Shown here: in pieces, positions 681-6,495 of the stretch | How positions within the stretch are numbered: position 1 is the first letter of the stretch | Layout: each line of letters opens with the position of its first letter | Source of the DNA: Synergistota bacterium | GTDB lineage: Bacteria > Synergistota > JAGHAJ01 | DNA length: 6,495 nt | Reading direction: 5' to 3' | Assembly: GCA_021161545.1 (NCBI GenBank) | Contig: JAGHAJ010000149.1 | Span: forward strand, 1 to 6,495 | Made by a program: the position numbers and the translations under genes | Notes under the pieces: generated by a model | Told to the model about the DNA's origin: nothing | Databases searched by the model: none | What the model saw: only the letters and a program-made list of their open reading frames with translations

Positions 681-1771
681 TCAGGCTTCCTCCCAACCAC
701 CGCATAACATCTATAACCAAAAAGCATCTCATTGAGCTTTCTTATATTGCCGTTGATTACCTTGCCCACCACACCATCTAAATCCACATGCCTCAAAGCA
801 TCTCCCTCTGAAAATGGAAGCATCGGTATAGCTTCTACATTAACAAATCCTAATTCCTTGAATACAATTACTAAGGCCTCTGGACTCACAGGTCTTAAAG
901 CTACTATATCCTGCCAGAAATCCCTTAGCACGGAAACCGAATGTGGATTAAGTATCTCTACCACCACATAAGCACCGGGTTCCAGCACATCGTAAGAGCT
1001 TGCAAGAAACCTTCTCAACTCACCCGGTGTAAGCAACTCAGCCAGCACAGACGCAAATATACCACCAAGCAAGTCAGATGGAAGCTCAAATAGGTAATCC
1101 AGCACATCCCCCTCCCTGATATCAAACCCATTCGTATCTATACCCTCTAAGAGTTTTTTATCAGAAACAACACCATAAGCTTTTATGCCATTTTCCTGCA
1201 TAAACTTCAAGAAAGCAACATCTCTACATGTAACATCAACGACATCCTTTCTGCCAGCAAAGTACTTCAGATACTTCTCAAATCTCCGTGTTTCTTGCCT
1301 CAAGAACGCAGGCTGAATACTCAAGGCTATAGGCCTCTCGTACACCCCCATTCGTTTCGCAACACCTTCTAATTTGTGCTCTATCCTCTTTATTTTCCCA
1401 TCGATACCCACAAAACTTCTCTCAAACTTCCTGACCAGTGCATTCAAAACCTTCACCACGAGCGAGTTAAAATCCCTCTGCGTATCCACAACCTTGCACA
1501 GCCATGGTCTAACAAGGATTTTTACAATCTTTTTTTCAAGAAGCAAAAGTTTACCCTTAACGCCTCCATGTATGGTTGTTACTGTCTGGTCATCTAAATA
1601 CCATGATGTATTAACCTTCTGAAGATAGTATTCCACTTCGTCAGGCATCTCAGTGTTTCTTAAAACCTCGTTAGCAATAGCATCAAGATCCTCCGTATAG
1701 ATACCCTTCCTCTTTTTCTCTTCAACCCTCCTCTCTATTTCTTCCATTATCTTTTTTACATCCACTCCCAC
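677..1771 (-). CDS. Degenerate class I SAM-methyltransferase-like protein of polysaccharide clusters
   Basis: About 364 residues, numbered here from the GTG at 1771; an ATG at 1786 would add five residues but has only a weak ribosome site, whereas GTG has GGAGG 8 nt upstream. The N-terminal part (8-25, IMEEIERRV and KRKGIY) and the segment RPW...DTQRDFN (88-102) match the N-terminal region of methyltransferases in O-antigen loci. A helical, charged stretch (104-138) precedes a Rossmann-like domain (about 175-363). The family frame is kept: VVDV, GDVLDYL (221-227), LGGI (235-238), VVVEILNP (269-276), RPVSPEAL (293-300), FGYRCYAVVGRKP (351-363). The working residues are not: the glycine-rich SAM loop, usually like GCGRG, reads TCRDV (181-185), and the acidic GVDL-type motif reads GVVSD (200-204). 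The family's EHL and DPTH signatures are also missing. It is probably an inactive pseudoenzyme with a structural role. Its stop overlaps the next start by 4 bases. Confidence 0.8.
   Translation of the reverse strand: MGVDVKKIMEEIERRVEEKKRKGIYTEDLDAIANEVLRNTEMPDEVEYYLQKVNTSWYLDDQTVTTIHGGVKGKLLLLEKKIVKILVRPWLCKVVDTQRDFNSLVVKVLNALVRKFERSFVGIDGKIKRIEHKLEGVAKRMGVYERPIALSIQPAFLRQETRRFEKYLKYFAGRKDVVDVTCRDVAFLKFMQENGIKAYGVVSDKKLLEGIDTNGFDIREGDVLDYLFELPSDLLGGIFASVLAELLTPGELRRFLASSYDVLEPGAYVVVEILNPHSVSVLRDFWQDIVALRPVSPEALVIVFKELGFVNVEAIPMLPFSEGDALRHVDLDGVVGKVINGNIRKLNEMLFGYRCYAVVGRKPE
689..693 (-). promoter_or_regulatory. Ribosome binding site of the GT4 gene
   Basis: GGAGG on the minus strand lies inside the last codons of the methyltransferase-like gene, 8 nt before the GTG at 680. 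It supports that start and the GTGA stop-start overlap (680-677). Confidence 0.7.
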
Positions 1772-1779
1772 CAGCCACA

Positions 1780-1784
1780 CCTCC
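1780..1784 (-). promoter_or_regulatory. Ribosome binding site favouring a GTG start of the methyltransferase-like gene
   Basis: GGAGG on the minus strand lies 8 nt before GTG at 1771. It falls inside the reading frame that would start at ATG 1786, whose own upstream sequence (GAGTAAGT) is a weak site. Starting at 1771 gives a protein that begins VGVDVKKIMEEI, closer to the usual N-terminus of the family. Confidence 0.55.
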
Positions 1785-1788
1785 ATAC

Positions 1789-3489
1789 TTACTCAAGGTA
1801 AATCTTACTAATAGCAACACCAAGCACCCTTGAATCCTCAAGCCCATAATCTGATGCCTTCCAGGGATTCTTTATCTTTACATCAAAATCCCTTATTTCC
1901 CCGCTAACCCAATCGGGAAGGCCAATTCCAACATCCACCCATCTGTCCTCTGAAAGCCTAAAACTACCTATGAATCTACCATCACAAAACACATCAGCCT
2001 CCGTAGGTGCATCCCCTATATCAGGCTTCCCACCTCTAAGAACAAATCTAAGCTTAGTATGTTCAGGTGAAACCCTCAAAACAAATTCAAATCTCTCCTT
2101 ACTCCATTTAAAAGAAATACCCTCCCAATCTTCAAGCCCATAAACACCATACAACAAAAACTTGTCAACCTGCTCGCTACCCACATCTATAGAATCAGGT
2201 GCATCTGCATAAAACTCCCTGAGATAAGATATAAACTCATCAAAAGAGAGAGCCTTCCTGGAAGCATGTAGAGCTGCATCCACTCTCGCAACTCCTACAA
2301 ACGAATAGTCAGGATCTGGCAAAACACTGAAAGATAAGAGGTTATCTCCCCAGAAGAATGTGCCAAAAAGGTGCACATCCAGAAGATGCACAGTAACACT
2401 TATAGTGTATAACCCAACCCCCACATTCATATCAAACTCATACTCCACAGTAATCTCCTCTCCCCTTTTCACTTCTCCAAAAAACTTTTTCAAATGGTAA
2501 CTATTAGTCCCAAATACATTATTTCCAAATCTATCCCTTATACTGAAACCCACAGTCGGGTCTTTCACATCCTGCCAGAAAACAATGTGAGCCACCAGTC
2601 TAACTCTCTGACCTGTTGTAACGTTGTGCAGGACATCTCCATTCTCATCGAGCAATTTGACATCTTTCACAACGGCGTAAAAATTACCGGAACGATACGA
2701 ATTTACACCACCCACGCACTTCTTTTCAATGATGAAATGCTCGTTTCTTATGGCTTTCTTGGCTATAAGTCCATTATAATGGTCAAGAACATCCATGGGA
2801 TTCCCACGATCTATGATCCTCCCCTCATCCACCAGCACCGCTTCATCACACAACATCCTTACCGCTGCTGCATCATGGGAAACAAACAGTATTGTAATAC
2901 CATTATCTTTAAGCTCTCTTATCTTTCGAACACACTTCTGCTGAAAATACGCATCACCTACAGCAAGCACCTCATCTATTATTAGTATTTCAGGGTCTAT
3001 ATTTATAGCCATGGAAAAGCCAAGCCTAACATACATACCAGAAGAATATGTCCTTAAAGGTCTATCTATAAACTCTCCAAGCTCCGAGAATGCAACAATT
3101 TCTGGTAACCTCTCTTCAAGCTCTTCTCTGGATAGTCCAAGCATCCTTCCGTTTAGCAAGACATTCTTTCTGCCTGTAAGCTCAGGATGGAAACCTATAC
3201 CAAGCTCCAGAAGGGCAGACACTCTCCCATTGACTTCTACGCTCCCAGTGGTAGGAGCGGTTATACCACTTATGATACTCAAAAGCGTAGATTTTCCTGC
3301 TCCATTCTGCCCAACAACACCTAGCATGGTTCCCTTCTCTACCTCAAGGTTTATATCCTTCAATGCCCAAAACTCTTTATACCTCTTTCTCCTACCGAGA
3401 GAAACCCAGTCCTTCAGCCTGTCCAGAGAAGATCTATAGACACGATACATCTTAGACACATTTGAAAGCTCAACGGCTACATCTGACAT
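1789..3489 (-). CDS. wzt: Wzt-type ABC transporter ATPase with carbohydrate-binding and extra C-terminal domain
   Basis: Cytoplasmic ATPase of the polysaccharide exporter; it powers the Wzm permease and binds the polymer. 566 residues from the ATG at 3489. The ABC domain (1-245) is complete: Walker A GQNGAGKST (60-68), signature YSSGM (148-152), Walker B ILIIDE (168-173), D-loop AVGD (176-179) and switch histidine H205. LELGIGFHPELTG (94-106) is typical of the Wzt/TagH class. Residues about 265-390 are beta-rich and match the Wzt C-terminal domain, which reads the finished chain in E. coli O9a (established for that system). After a helical linker (about 410-430) comes a second beta-rich domain (about 440-566), with YGVYGLEDW, DGRFIGSF, RWVDVGIGLP and DSRVLGVAIS. 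The O9a protein is about 430 residues, so this domain is an addition. Its start lies 12 nt after the wzm stop. The ATPase assignment is very firm; the extra domain's role is unknown. Confidence 0.96.
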   Translation of the reverse strand: MSDVAVELSNVSKMYRVYRSSLDRLKDWVSLGRRKRYKEFWALKDINLEVEKGTMLGVVGQNGAGKSTLLSIISGITAPTTGSVEVNGRVSALLELGIGFHPELTGRKNVLLNGRMLGLSREELEERLPEIVAFSELGEFIDRPLRTYSSGMYVRLGFSMAINIDPEILIIDEVLAVGDAYFQQKCVRKIRELKDNGITILFVSHDAAAVRMLCDEAVLVDEGRIIDRGNPMDVLDHYNGLIAKKAIRNEHFIIEKKCVGGVNSYRSGNFYAVVKDVKLLDENGDVLHNVTTGQRVRLVAHIVFWQDVKDPTVGFSIRDRFGNNVFGTNSYHLKKFFGEVKRGEEITVEYEFDMNVGVGLYTISVTVHLLDVHLFGTFFWGDNLLSFSVLPDPDYSFVGVARVDAALHASRKALSFDEFISYLREFYADAPDSIDVGSEQVDKFLLYGVYGLEDWEGISFKWSKERFEFVLRVSPEHTKLRFVLRGGKPDIGDAPTEADVFCDGRFIGSFRLSEDRWVDVGIGLPDWVSGEIRDFDVKIKNPWKASDYGLEDSRVLGVAISKIYLE

Positions 3490-3495
3490 CAATCC

Positions 3496-3503
3496 ACCAC
3501 CTT
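3496..3503 (-). promoter_or_regulatory. Ribosome binding site deciding the wzt start
   Basis: AAGGTGGT on the minus strand overlaps the wzm stop codon (TAA, 3504-3502) and lies 6 nt before the ATG at 3489. The TTG just upstream (3492) is less likely as the start because an ATG directly follows it. The overlap suggests that translation of wzt is coupled to wzm. Confidence 0.65.
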
Positions 3504-4287
3504 ACAGTTCATCCGCTATATCCCTTCCAAGATTCCTGAATATCCACGCACCAATGAAGAGGAAAAGTACCGTTATCCCCAGGAAAATCAAAGCATAAGA
3601 AAACTGCGGCACCTTACCCCTAAAAACCGCGTTGTGATACATCTCTATCATGTAGAACATAGGATTAAGCCTTAACACTATTCCAAGTTTATGAGGTATG
3701 ATCGTAATAGGGTAAACTATCGGTGTCATCCAGAACCAGAACTGAAAGATTACATTCACCACCTGAGAAACATCCTTTATATATACATTTATAACCGATG
3801 TTCCCATTGTAAGAGCAAAGGCAAACAACTGCTGCAGAAACATAAGGGGGATTATAAACAAGTAACTTATGGTGATAGGATGCCCCACAATAAGGACAAA
3901 TGCCAAAAAGAGACAGAAAGAAATAGCAAATACTACCATGCTGGATATGTTCGTAAAAGCAAGCAAAACCTCTCTTGGAAAGGATATTTTTTTTATGATA
4001 TTCGCATTCTCCACGAACACATTTGTCCCCCTTATGACCGCTTCCTGAAACGCCATCCACGAAAATATACCAGAACAGAGATATATACTGTAGCCGTAAA
4101 TATCATTCACGCCCGGGAGCTTCGCCCTCATAATCTGTGAAAATATGACTGTGTATATCACTATCATTGCAAGCGGATTTATCACATTCCATAAGATACC
4201 CATCATAGACCCGGCATACCTATTTCTCAAATCCCTCGAGACAAGATTCAGCACAAGCTCCCTGTTTTTCCATATAATAGAAAACAT
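3502..4287 (-). CDS. wzm: Wzm/TagG-type ABC-2 permease for polysaccharide export
   Basis: Inner-membrane subunit, working as a dimer with two Wzt ATPases, that extrudes undecaprenyl-linked polysaccharide to the outer face. Its 261 residues are the normal length for the family. The N-terminal motif RDLRNRYAGSMMG (18-30) followed by LWNVINPL (32-39) is the family signature. About six hydrophobic segments follow, near 35-51, 65-80, 108-134, 141-163, 176-195 and 230-250. WMTPIVYP (186-193), LNPM (207-210) and the C-terminal GRDIADEL (254-261) are also typical. The ATG at 4287 has a near-perfect site, AAGGAGGT, 5 nt upstream, which fixes the start. It is the first gene after the internal promoter candidate. 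The substrate cannot be read from the permease; a teichoic-acid-type substrate is possible in principle, but the Wzt carbohydrate-binding domain favours an O-antigen-like glycan. Confidence 0.95.
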   Translation of the reverse strand: MFSIIWKNRELVLNLVSRDLRNRYAGSMMGILWNVINPLAMIVIYTVIFSQIMRAKLPGVNDIYGYSIYLCSGIFSWMAFQEAVIRGTNVFVENANIIKKISFPREVLLAFTNISSMVVFAISFCLFLAFVLIVGHPITISYLFIIPLMFLQQLFAFALTMGTSVINVYIKDVSQVVNVIFQFWFWMTPIVYPITIIPHKLGIVLRLNPMFYMIEMYHNAVFRGKVPQFSYALIFLGITVLFLFIGAWIFRNLGRDIADEL

Positions 4288-4347: not shown

Positions 4348-6495
4348 CTAACCCTTCTCTCTTATCACCTTTATGCGGTCAAACCACAACTCTGTATTAC
4401 CATAAAAGTACATCCTGAATTGCAATACCCTTTCTGACTTCAGGGTAAAAGGGAGTGGAAATTCCTCGTGTTTCATAGCCTTCTTGAAATCTACTCCACG
4501 AATGAGTTTCTTCAGCCTCTTACTACCATCATAAACCTCAATAGTACACACCTTACTTTCAACCTTGTTTTTCACCTTTAACCTGAAGAGCGCCACATAT
4601 TTACCTGGAGGATATAGCCTGTATGGCCCACAAGTCGGGTATATATCGTGGTCCCATGTCGGAGTCAGATGAATAGCCCTCCTATTGGAAGCCTCGCTAT
4701 CATAAACCATAACCCCTGCTCTGTGGAATAATCTCTCTGCCTCTATGTTCCCAAGTAGCGGGTCTTTCTGAGAAGCAGACACTATATACCGGTAATCTAC
4801 CCAGAGATCTGCTCTCTTAGTGAAAAGCACCCTAAACTCAAGATTTCTGGGCTCAGGTAGGTCCAGGGTAGTAGAAAATGTCTGATACATAAGGCTCTTT
4901 CTAAAATCCGTTCCTTTGAGTTTCCGTTCATACAAAACGGTTTTACCCTTATCAGTGACTATGTCTATAATCGCCACAGTATCTTTTATAGTATTGTCCT
5001 TTACCTTTAATCTGAAGGAGACCTTATACTTCCCAGCAGGCATGGAGACATAAGGGCCAAAGACTATATGGCCCATCGAGGTATGTGCTTTGCTACCATA
5101 AACTGCTTTACCACAGGAAGCGCCTTTATCCTCAACAACCCTGCCAGCCCTCCTCGGGGAGTATTCCGCTTCATAGCATCTACCTATTATACTGCTGATC
5201 TTTATACTTTTCTGTTTAGCAGGCTTTGAAAGCACCTCAAACAGCCACATGTTATCGTCATAACCGACGAACCTGAGATATGGAGAGTTTCTAAACCTTC
5301 TCACCGTAAAATAGACAGGATAAGGGCTGACCCTCATCGGGAATGCATCTGCGTGCACAACAAGATACTTTACATCAAGTTTCCTCAACAGCTCGTACTG
5401 TTGTTTTTTCAACCTACCCATGTTCAGGCACTCAAGTGGCTTAAACACATCGTAAAAGTAGTGATTTGAAACAACTGGGCAATATCCATTTATCATCTTT
5501 GCACGCGTGAGTGTCACATCATACATGTAAACAGAAGATATACTACTATCTCCAGGCCAGAACGATATCTCAAGCATCCGTCTATTACCTATGGTATCTC
5601 TTATCAGTTTATGTATCCTGTTTGGGCCCGGAAGATATGTCATAGCAACGGGGTAAGGAGGAAAGTAATCAAAGAGTATCAGTCCTATGAGTGCAGTGCC
5701 AACCACAAGAGAAAGCCTTCTACTCCCAATCCGTTGAGCAACAAACTCTTTTATTTCTCTGAATCCAAATGCCGCAAGGACCGAAATGGCAAAAAAGGCA
5801 TCAAATATCATCTTTCCCGGGGACCTCGACATCTTAAAGTAAGGAACAAACTTATAGCAGGCTTTATACAGAGGAAACCACTTTAGAGTGGGTCCAAGCG
5901 AGAGTATCACGAAAACCACTCCTATAAATAAGAACATCAAAGCTAAATAAGTGTCCCTGTCCCTTTTACGCCACACTCCGAGAGACAAAAAAGACAGCGG
6001 TAAAACAACCGCACCTATGTAGATATATCTCTCATAGAACCTCTGTACCCTTATAAACAGGTCCTGCCAGTGAGGGGAATACAATAATATTTCTCTGAAG
6101 CTCCTTCCACCGTGTATCCTTGTCCCCACAAATGCACTTTTACTGGATATGTATATATAAAGCACAACTCCACCCAGGATCAAGATAAACGGCAAAAAAG
6201 ACCTTACCACAAGTTTCACATCTCTATCAAGGATAAGAGAAATAAGTGCTCTCAACGGCAAATACAATCCCAATAGAAGAACTATATAGTAAAGCAACTG
6301 GCCCTCCATAAAGTAGAGCGTGGATAAAAGCAAACCCGCCAATAAAGAATAAAACCACTTCCTTCTAAGAAAGGCAAGCTCCAGATAGTAAATAACCATC
6401 GGAAAGTAAAACAGCAAAAATCCAGACAATTGACCACCAAATATCTTTGCTCTATGGTAAGGAAAGAATGTAAAAATCACAGCACCAACAAAGGC
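4348..6495 (-). CDS. GT-C/YfhO-like polytopic membrane protein with two C-terminal carbohydrate-binding-like modules (N-terminus beyond window edge)
   Basis: The frame is open to the window edge; 715 codons are visible and the GTG at 6480 is not a convincing start, since in-frame hydrophobic sequence continues upstream. Residues here count from that GTG. At least eight hydrophobic helices lie within 1-272. GGQLSGFLLFYFP (15-27) and YFMEGQLLYY (56-65) resemble uncharacterised GT-C-fold, polyprenyl-phosphate-sugar-dependent transferases and YfhO-like proteins. A soluble region (about 280-420) holds LEISFWPGD (303-311), NGYCPVVSNHYFYD (331-344) and VKYLVVHADAFP (370-381). Two similar beta-sandwich modules follow (436-567 and 579-707). 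By family topology the C-terminal part should be extracytoplasmic, so it probably handles the glycan after or during export. The catalytic acidic loop of GT-C enzymes lies near the N-terminus, outside the window, so activity cannot be judged. The gene ends TAG 60 bases before wzm. Confidence 0.75.
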   Translation of the reverse strand, partial: AFVGAVIFTFFPYHRAKIFGGQLSGFLLFYFPMVIYYLELAFLRRKWFYSLLAGLLLSTLYFMEGQLLYYIVLLLGLYLPLRALISLILDRDVKLVVRSFLPFILILGGVVLYIYISSKSAFVGTRIHGGRSFREILLYSPHWQDLFIRVQRFYERYIYIGAVVLPLSFLSLGVWRKRDRDTYLALMFLFIGVVFVILSLGPTLKWFPLYKACYKFVPYFKMSRSPGKMIFDAFFAISVLAAFGFREIKEFVAQRIGSRRLSLVVGTALIGLILFDYFPPYPVAMTYLPGPNRIHKLIRDTIGNRRMLEISFWPGDSSISSVYMYDVTLTRAKMINGYCPVVSNHYFYDVFKPLECLNMGRLKKQQYELLRKLDVKYLVVHADAFPMRVSPYPVYFTVRRFRNSPYLRFVGYDDNMWLFEVLSKPAKQKSIKISSIIGRCYEAEYSPRRAGRVVEDKGASCGKAVYGSKAHTSMGHIVFGPYVSMPAGKYKVSFRLKVKDNTIKDTVAIIDIVTDKGKTVLYERKLKGTDFRKSLMYQTFSTTLDLPEPRNLEFRVLFTKRADLWVDYRYIVSASQKDPLLGNIEAERLFHRAGVMVYDSEASNRRAIHLTPTWDHDIYPTCGPYRLYPPGKYVALFRLKVKNKVESKVCTIEVYDGSKRLKKLIRGVDFKKAMKHEEFPLPFTLKSERVLQFRMYFYGNTELWFDRIKVIREKG
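4360..5175 (-). repeat. Tandem pair of related protein modules (carbohydrate-binding-like) in the GT-C gene
   Basis: This is a protein-level repeat. Module 1 is encoded by 5175-4780 and module 2 by 4746-4360. Both begin with an acidic motif (YEAEYSPRRAG; IEAERLFHRAG). Both then carry a central PAGKYKVSFRLKVKD / PPGKYVALFRLKVKN block and a KGTDFRKS / RGVDFKKA block. Both end with LEFRVLF...DLWVD / LQFRMYF...ELWFD. The order and spacing match, and the copies have diverged too far for a recent duplication. The EAE opening, GKY core and terminal W-x-D strand recall CBM6/35-like jelly-roll modules, but the family is inferred from pattern only. Confidence 0.7.

Follow-up and report, generated by a model that had tools for sequence, protein, structure and literature searches.

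In a Synergistota draft genome, the gene placed directly after Wzt codes for a protein that belongs, as a divergent member, to the family of methyltransferases encoded next to Wzm/Wzt polysaccharide exporters. The SAM-site and catalytic motifs of this protein have been gutted, and its sequence indicates that it is likely a pseudoenzyme. We consider the chances about even that it is a methyltransferase that no longer catalyses and has been retained as a non-catalytic component of the complex that assembles or exports the polysaccharide. Retention for a structural role is plausible; a role as a scaffold and the identity of the partner are speculative.

Gene neighbourhood and family assignment

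The stretch of DNA analysed here, referred to as the window, is one entire contig of 6,495 bases from a draft genome of 1.58 Mb that is 82% complete. All of its genes are on the minus strand, in the order large membrane protein (cut), Wzm, Wzt, degenerate methyltransferase and probable GT4 glycosyltransferase (cut); the features discussed below are listed in Table 1. The junction between Wzt and the degenerate methyltransferase reads TAA-GT-ATG, and the GTG start of the GT4 gene overlaps the methyltransferase stop (GTGA). The reading frame was described as intact in the initial annotation and is so, with no stop or frameshift in its 369 codons, and its codon usage is like that of its neighbours (RSCU correlation 0.73-0.80). 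In the C-terminal part of the large membrane protein, two similar segments can be seen by eye (YEAEYSPRRAG... and IEAERLFHRAG...), which are perhaps tandem carbohydrate-binding domains.

Table 1. Positions of genes and protein features in the window
Feature	Positions	Strand	Basis or remark
Degenerate methyltransferase gene, 369 aa	680..1786	-	stop codon 677-679; homologous to 3dli over residues 167-367
Strand 1 and former glycine loop, residues 181-196, DVVDVTCRDVAFLKFM; family has VLDIGCGRGEFL	1199..1246	-	alignment
Strand 2 end, residues 205-209, GVVSD; family has GVD	1160..1174	-	alignment
Former H..EH region, residues 247-252, VLAELL	1031..1048	-	alignment
Former DPTH, residues 293-296, DIVA	899..910	-	alignment
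N-terminal helical segment, residues 1-146, including Q..FNS....NALV	1349..1786	-	helices in low-confidence part of model
Wzt: ATPase domain, Wzt_C cap-binding domain (residues 265-403) and ~165 further residues without known family	1789..3492	-	
Wzm, ABC-2 type permease	3502..4287	-	Pfam/NCBIfam
Probable GT4 glycosyltransferase, cut by contig end	3..680	-	sub-threshold Pfam match
Large membrane protein, cut by contig end, no family match	4348..6495	-	Pfam, NCBIfam

The methyltransferase of Archaeoglobus fulgidus, 3dli, is the best match of the window protein both in sequence and in fold, with approximately 33% identity over the whole methyltransferase domain (phmmer E 7e-27), including the C-terminal N-I-x-KLN-x-x-LFG. 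The window protein thus shares common descent with the 3dli-like polysaccharide-cluster family across the entire domain. The frame motifs of the O-antigen-cluster methyltransferase family quoted in the initial annotation are likewise present. Searches of Pfam and NCBIfam returned zero matches to the protein above the standard cut-offs and none to a kinase domain. When seven proteins were scanned together with Pfam Methyltransf_23 (cut-off 27 bits), it scored 15.4, against 47.8 for 3dli, 60.1 for P0002, 49.4 for P0003 and 71.0 for L042. Structure prediction, suggested earlier as a check, supported the fold: in an AlphaFold model built from a shallow alignment of 8 rows, residues ~154-369 form a class I seven-strand fold, with a core pLDDT mostly of ~70-94 and weaker loops. 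The structure nearest to this model is 3dli (Foldseek E 2e-18; VIA-align Z 22.9, rmsd 4.5 over 210 residues), and the N-terminal half is helical, with low confidence.

Selective erosion of the SAM-site and catalytic motifs

The protein was compared with 15 canonical intact members, including 3dli, in an alignment of 17 sequences. All 15 carry the G-C-G-R-G loop, an aspartate after strand 2, E-H, and the D, T and H of DPTH (D-x-T-H); at the same columns the window protein has T-C-R-D-V, V, E-L and D-I-V-A. The glycine-rich SAM loop of the D/E-x-G-x-G-x-G type, whose three glycines occur in every intact member, is replaced by DVTCRDV, and V207 occupies the place of the acidic residue that ends strand 2, with D209 two residues further. 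In total, G, G, R, G, D, H, H, P, T and H have been lost at columns conserved in 80-100% of the 15 intact members. Also missing is FE..FRG, a motif found ahead of strand 1 in the longer members. Unlike the window protein, which has none of these motifs complete, 3dli presents the full GCGRGEF loop, GVD, VEHL and DPTH.

The replacement of the glycine loop by TCRDV and the GVVSD at the end of strand 2, as first annotated, are therefore borne out against the canonical members. The accompanying claim that the EHL and DPTH signatures are missing holds for the motifs, but goes too far for their residues: E250 and D293 survive, as do D184 and C187 of the loop, so that the motifs are gutted rather than wholly absent. 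Sequencing error and compensating frameshifts were rejected as explanations, since the alignment of the loop is gap-free and the changes affect four separated motifs. Judged from the sequence, the SAM-site loss in this positional homolog of the exporter-linked methyltransferases is real and not artefactual, and we infer that the protein would not bind SAM.

Residues were not lost evenly. In the intact members, 38 columns reach a conservation of 80% or more; of these, the window protein keeps 4 of the 15 that belong to SAM or catalytic motifs and 17 of the other 23 (Fisher one-sided p = 0.005, for 15 canonical members of limited diversity and a motif set compared after the loss had already been noticed). 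Uniform neutral decay was simulated from other family members as ancestors until 11 motif residues were lost. On average, approximately 8 of the 23 non-motif residues then remained; the highest numbers remaining in the three sets of 300 runs were 17, 15 and 18. The observed pattern is consequently not readily reproduced by uniform neutral decay. The loss at the motifs, with other conserved residues spared, favours the view that the active site was lost while the fold remained constrained. The background identity of the protein to 3dli (0.29) equals the highest among members, a comparison weaker than the conserved-column test because it depends on how close the ancestor was to 3dli.

These results bear on the possibility of simple decay, in which function was lost and the gene is drifting, its frame open by chance or through translational coupling to the following glycosyltransferase. 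We consider this unlikely, although the start-stop overlap with the next gene fits it, as does the fact that we are dealing with a single sequence on a long branch (1.37 in the tree, versus 0.67 for 3dli) for which no ortholog was found. The branch length may indeed reflect some relaxation of constraint. However, the concentration of loss at the motifs, the rarity of simulations keeping 17 of the 23 residues, a codon usage matching the neighbours and 369 codons without a stop all argue against drift.

Relatives of the degenerate methyltransferase

The relatives used here were drawn from plasmids, viral contigs and the sole family member in the phylum. Genome-contig and viral scans with the window protein, or with alignments in which it was the lead sequence, returned no relative. 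No close ortholog with the same loop was found, and the maintenance of the gene is consequently judged from one sequence. A search of 185 genomes of the phylum yielded a single true family member, in G050, which is intact and adjoins a Wzt gene. The window's own genome, 82% complete, yielded no intact paralog of the family; its two generic methyltransferase genes fall outside this family. The N-terminal segment alone, used as a query, had no match in plasmids; its second match in the same genome adjoins a MutS2-like ORF and was taken as chance.

An intact family methyltransferase directly follows Wzt in G050, Shinella, Pseudomonas monteilii and Campylobacter (loci L002, L056, L057 and L059), and all four Wzt proteins carry Wzt_C. 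This position is common in the family and absent in some members, and is thus not strictly defining. In Sulfitobacter sp. DSM 110093 (L052:2351-5507) and Campylobacter sp. RM16187 (L059:2417-5537), proteins annotated as glycosyltransferases and exceeding 1,000 aa begin with the intact methyltransferase domain.

UQZ91443.1, encoded within a polysaccharide cluster on a plasmid of Deltaproteobacterium Smac51 (P0001, L003:4674-5879) and annotated as hypothetical, shares with the window protein the Q..FNS....NALV N-terminal segment, the lack of FRG and of DPTH (DIGR) and the replacement of PQDYA by YR.Y. In contrast to the window protein, it has retained CGTG, GVD and EH, scores above the Pfam methyltransferase cut-offs and shows losses that are not concentrated at the motifs. 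It is a partly degenerate relative in the same methyltransferase family. The two proteins group in the tree (84/71); both branches are long, so this grouping may be due to attraction. A wider divergent lineage including both proteins is possible. Rather doubtfully, one could go further and propose a divergent lineage of exporter-linked methyltransferases, both proteins included, in which methylation is being or has been abandoned. Its members would take part in cap-dependent polysaccharide assembly as subunits that are structural or sense the chain end, and another enzyme would perform the capping.

The initial annotation had proposed a pseudo-methyltransferase kept for structure. This proposal gains from the kept fold, the selective loss of SAM-site and catalytic residues, the intact ORF lying tight in a Wzm-Wzt operon and the cap-binding residues retained in Wzt; it is weakened by the long branch and by the only partial degeneration of the Smac51 protein, the nearest relative with the same N-terminus. 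Methyltransferase-fold proteins that perform no methyl transfer exist, and the [4+2]-cyclase SpnF is among the Foldseek matches of the window model. The selectively changed pocket and the retained fold could thus also speak for a repurposed protein that binds another ligand (sugar, nucleotide sugar or lipid) or carries out a different chemistry. To this reading we likewise give little credence, as one sequence cannot define a new conserved pocket and the loop of the window protein does not recur in its Smac51 relative.

A probably cap-dependent exporter and a possible structural role

The window Wzt carries the Wzt_C domain (PF14524, 7.6e-31), and its best solved relative is the Aquifex aeolicus WzmWzt (8dku, E 1e-99), an exporter that reads a methylated terminal sugar (PMC9445017). 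It keeps H350, H355 and W362 of the Aquifex cap site, whereas the methyl-pocket residues L300, T346 and A348 read S, S and T; these three positions also vary among Wzt paired with intact methyltransferases. The two histidines, the tryptophan and Wzt_C being retained, the window exporter looks cap-dependent, although its neighbour should not methylate. The cap could come from another enzyme outside this contig or be of another kind.

Relative to 8dku, the window Wzt also has an extra C-terminal region of ~165 residues past Wzt_C (positions 1792-2280, minus strand). Neither Pfam nor the plasmids gave a match to it, and its model, of low confidence (pLDDT 45), is mostly beta. This tail may be a second glycan-binding domain.

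Two chain-terminating methyltransferases, E. coli WbdD (O9a/O8) and Klebsiella O7 ORF6, are, like the window gene product, encoded in an ABC-transporter-dependent O-antigen locus. The O9a and O7 terminators combine methyl-phosphate capping with a coiled-coil ruler, and their coiled-coil parts are tied to chain-length control (PMC3482155, PMC11231755). These enzymes are active and, in O9a and O7, have kinase domains, whereas the window protein has neither a kinase domain nor a recognisable SAM site. It is very unlikely that the latter is a still-active methyltransferase whose changed loop binds SAM and in which D209 stands in for the usual acidic residue. In favour of such an enzyme, one could cite the predicted class I fold, the acidic residue two positions further and the kept D184 and E250. 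Against it, all loop glycines, the acidic residue, both conserved histidines and the T-H of DPTH have changed together, and E. coli O9a WbdD needs its active-site residues, including H132 and H133 (PMC3482155).

A non-catalytic part of the assembly or export complex could have arisen as follows. The ancestor was the methyltransferase encoded next to cap-dependent Wzm/Wzt polysaccharide exporters; SAM binding and methyl transfer would have been lost, with the fold and the N-terminal helical segment retained. The helical part and the methyltransferase-fold body would hold the glycosyltransferases, the growing chain end or both near Wzt, and the cap read by Wzt would be added by another enzyme, which is not seen within this contig of only 6.5 kb. 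The most economical reading is that the retained helical N-terminus and methyltransferase body could keep the tethering half of the job of the O9a/O7 terminators. Among the papers searched, none described a dead methyltransferase at a locus of this kind.

Terminating enzymes of cap-dependent O-antigen systems are believed to control chain length in two ways, through their chemistry and by serving as a ruler and a tether for the polymerase. With a naturally dead version that still adjoins a cap-reading exporter, the structural role could be told apart from the chemistry. The case of the window protein also indicates that gene position alone is insufficient to call such a gene a methyltransferase.
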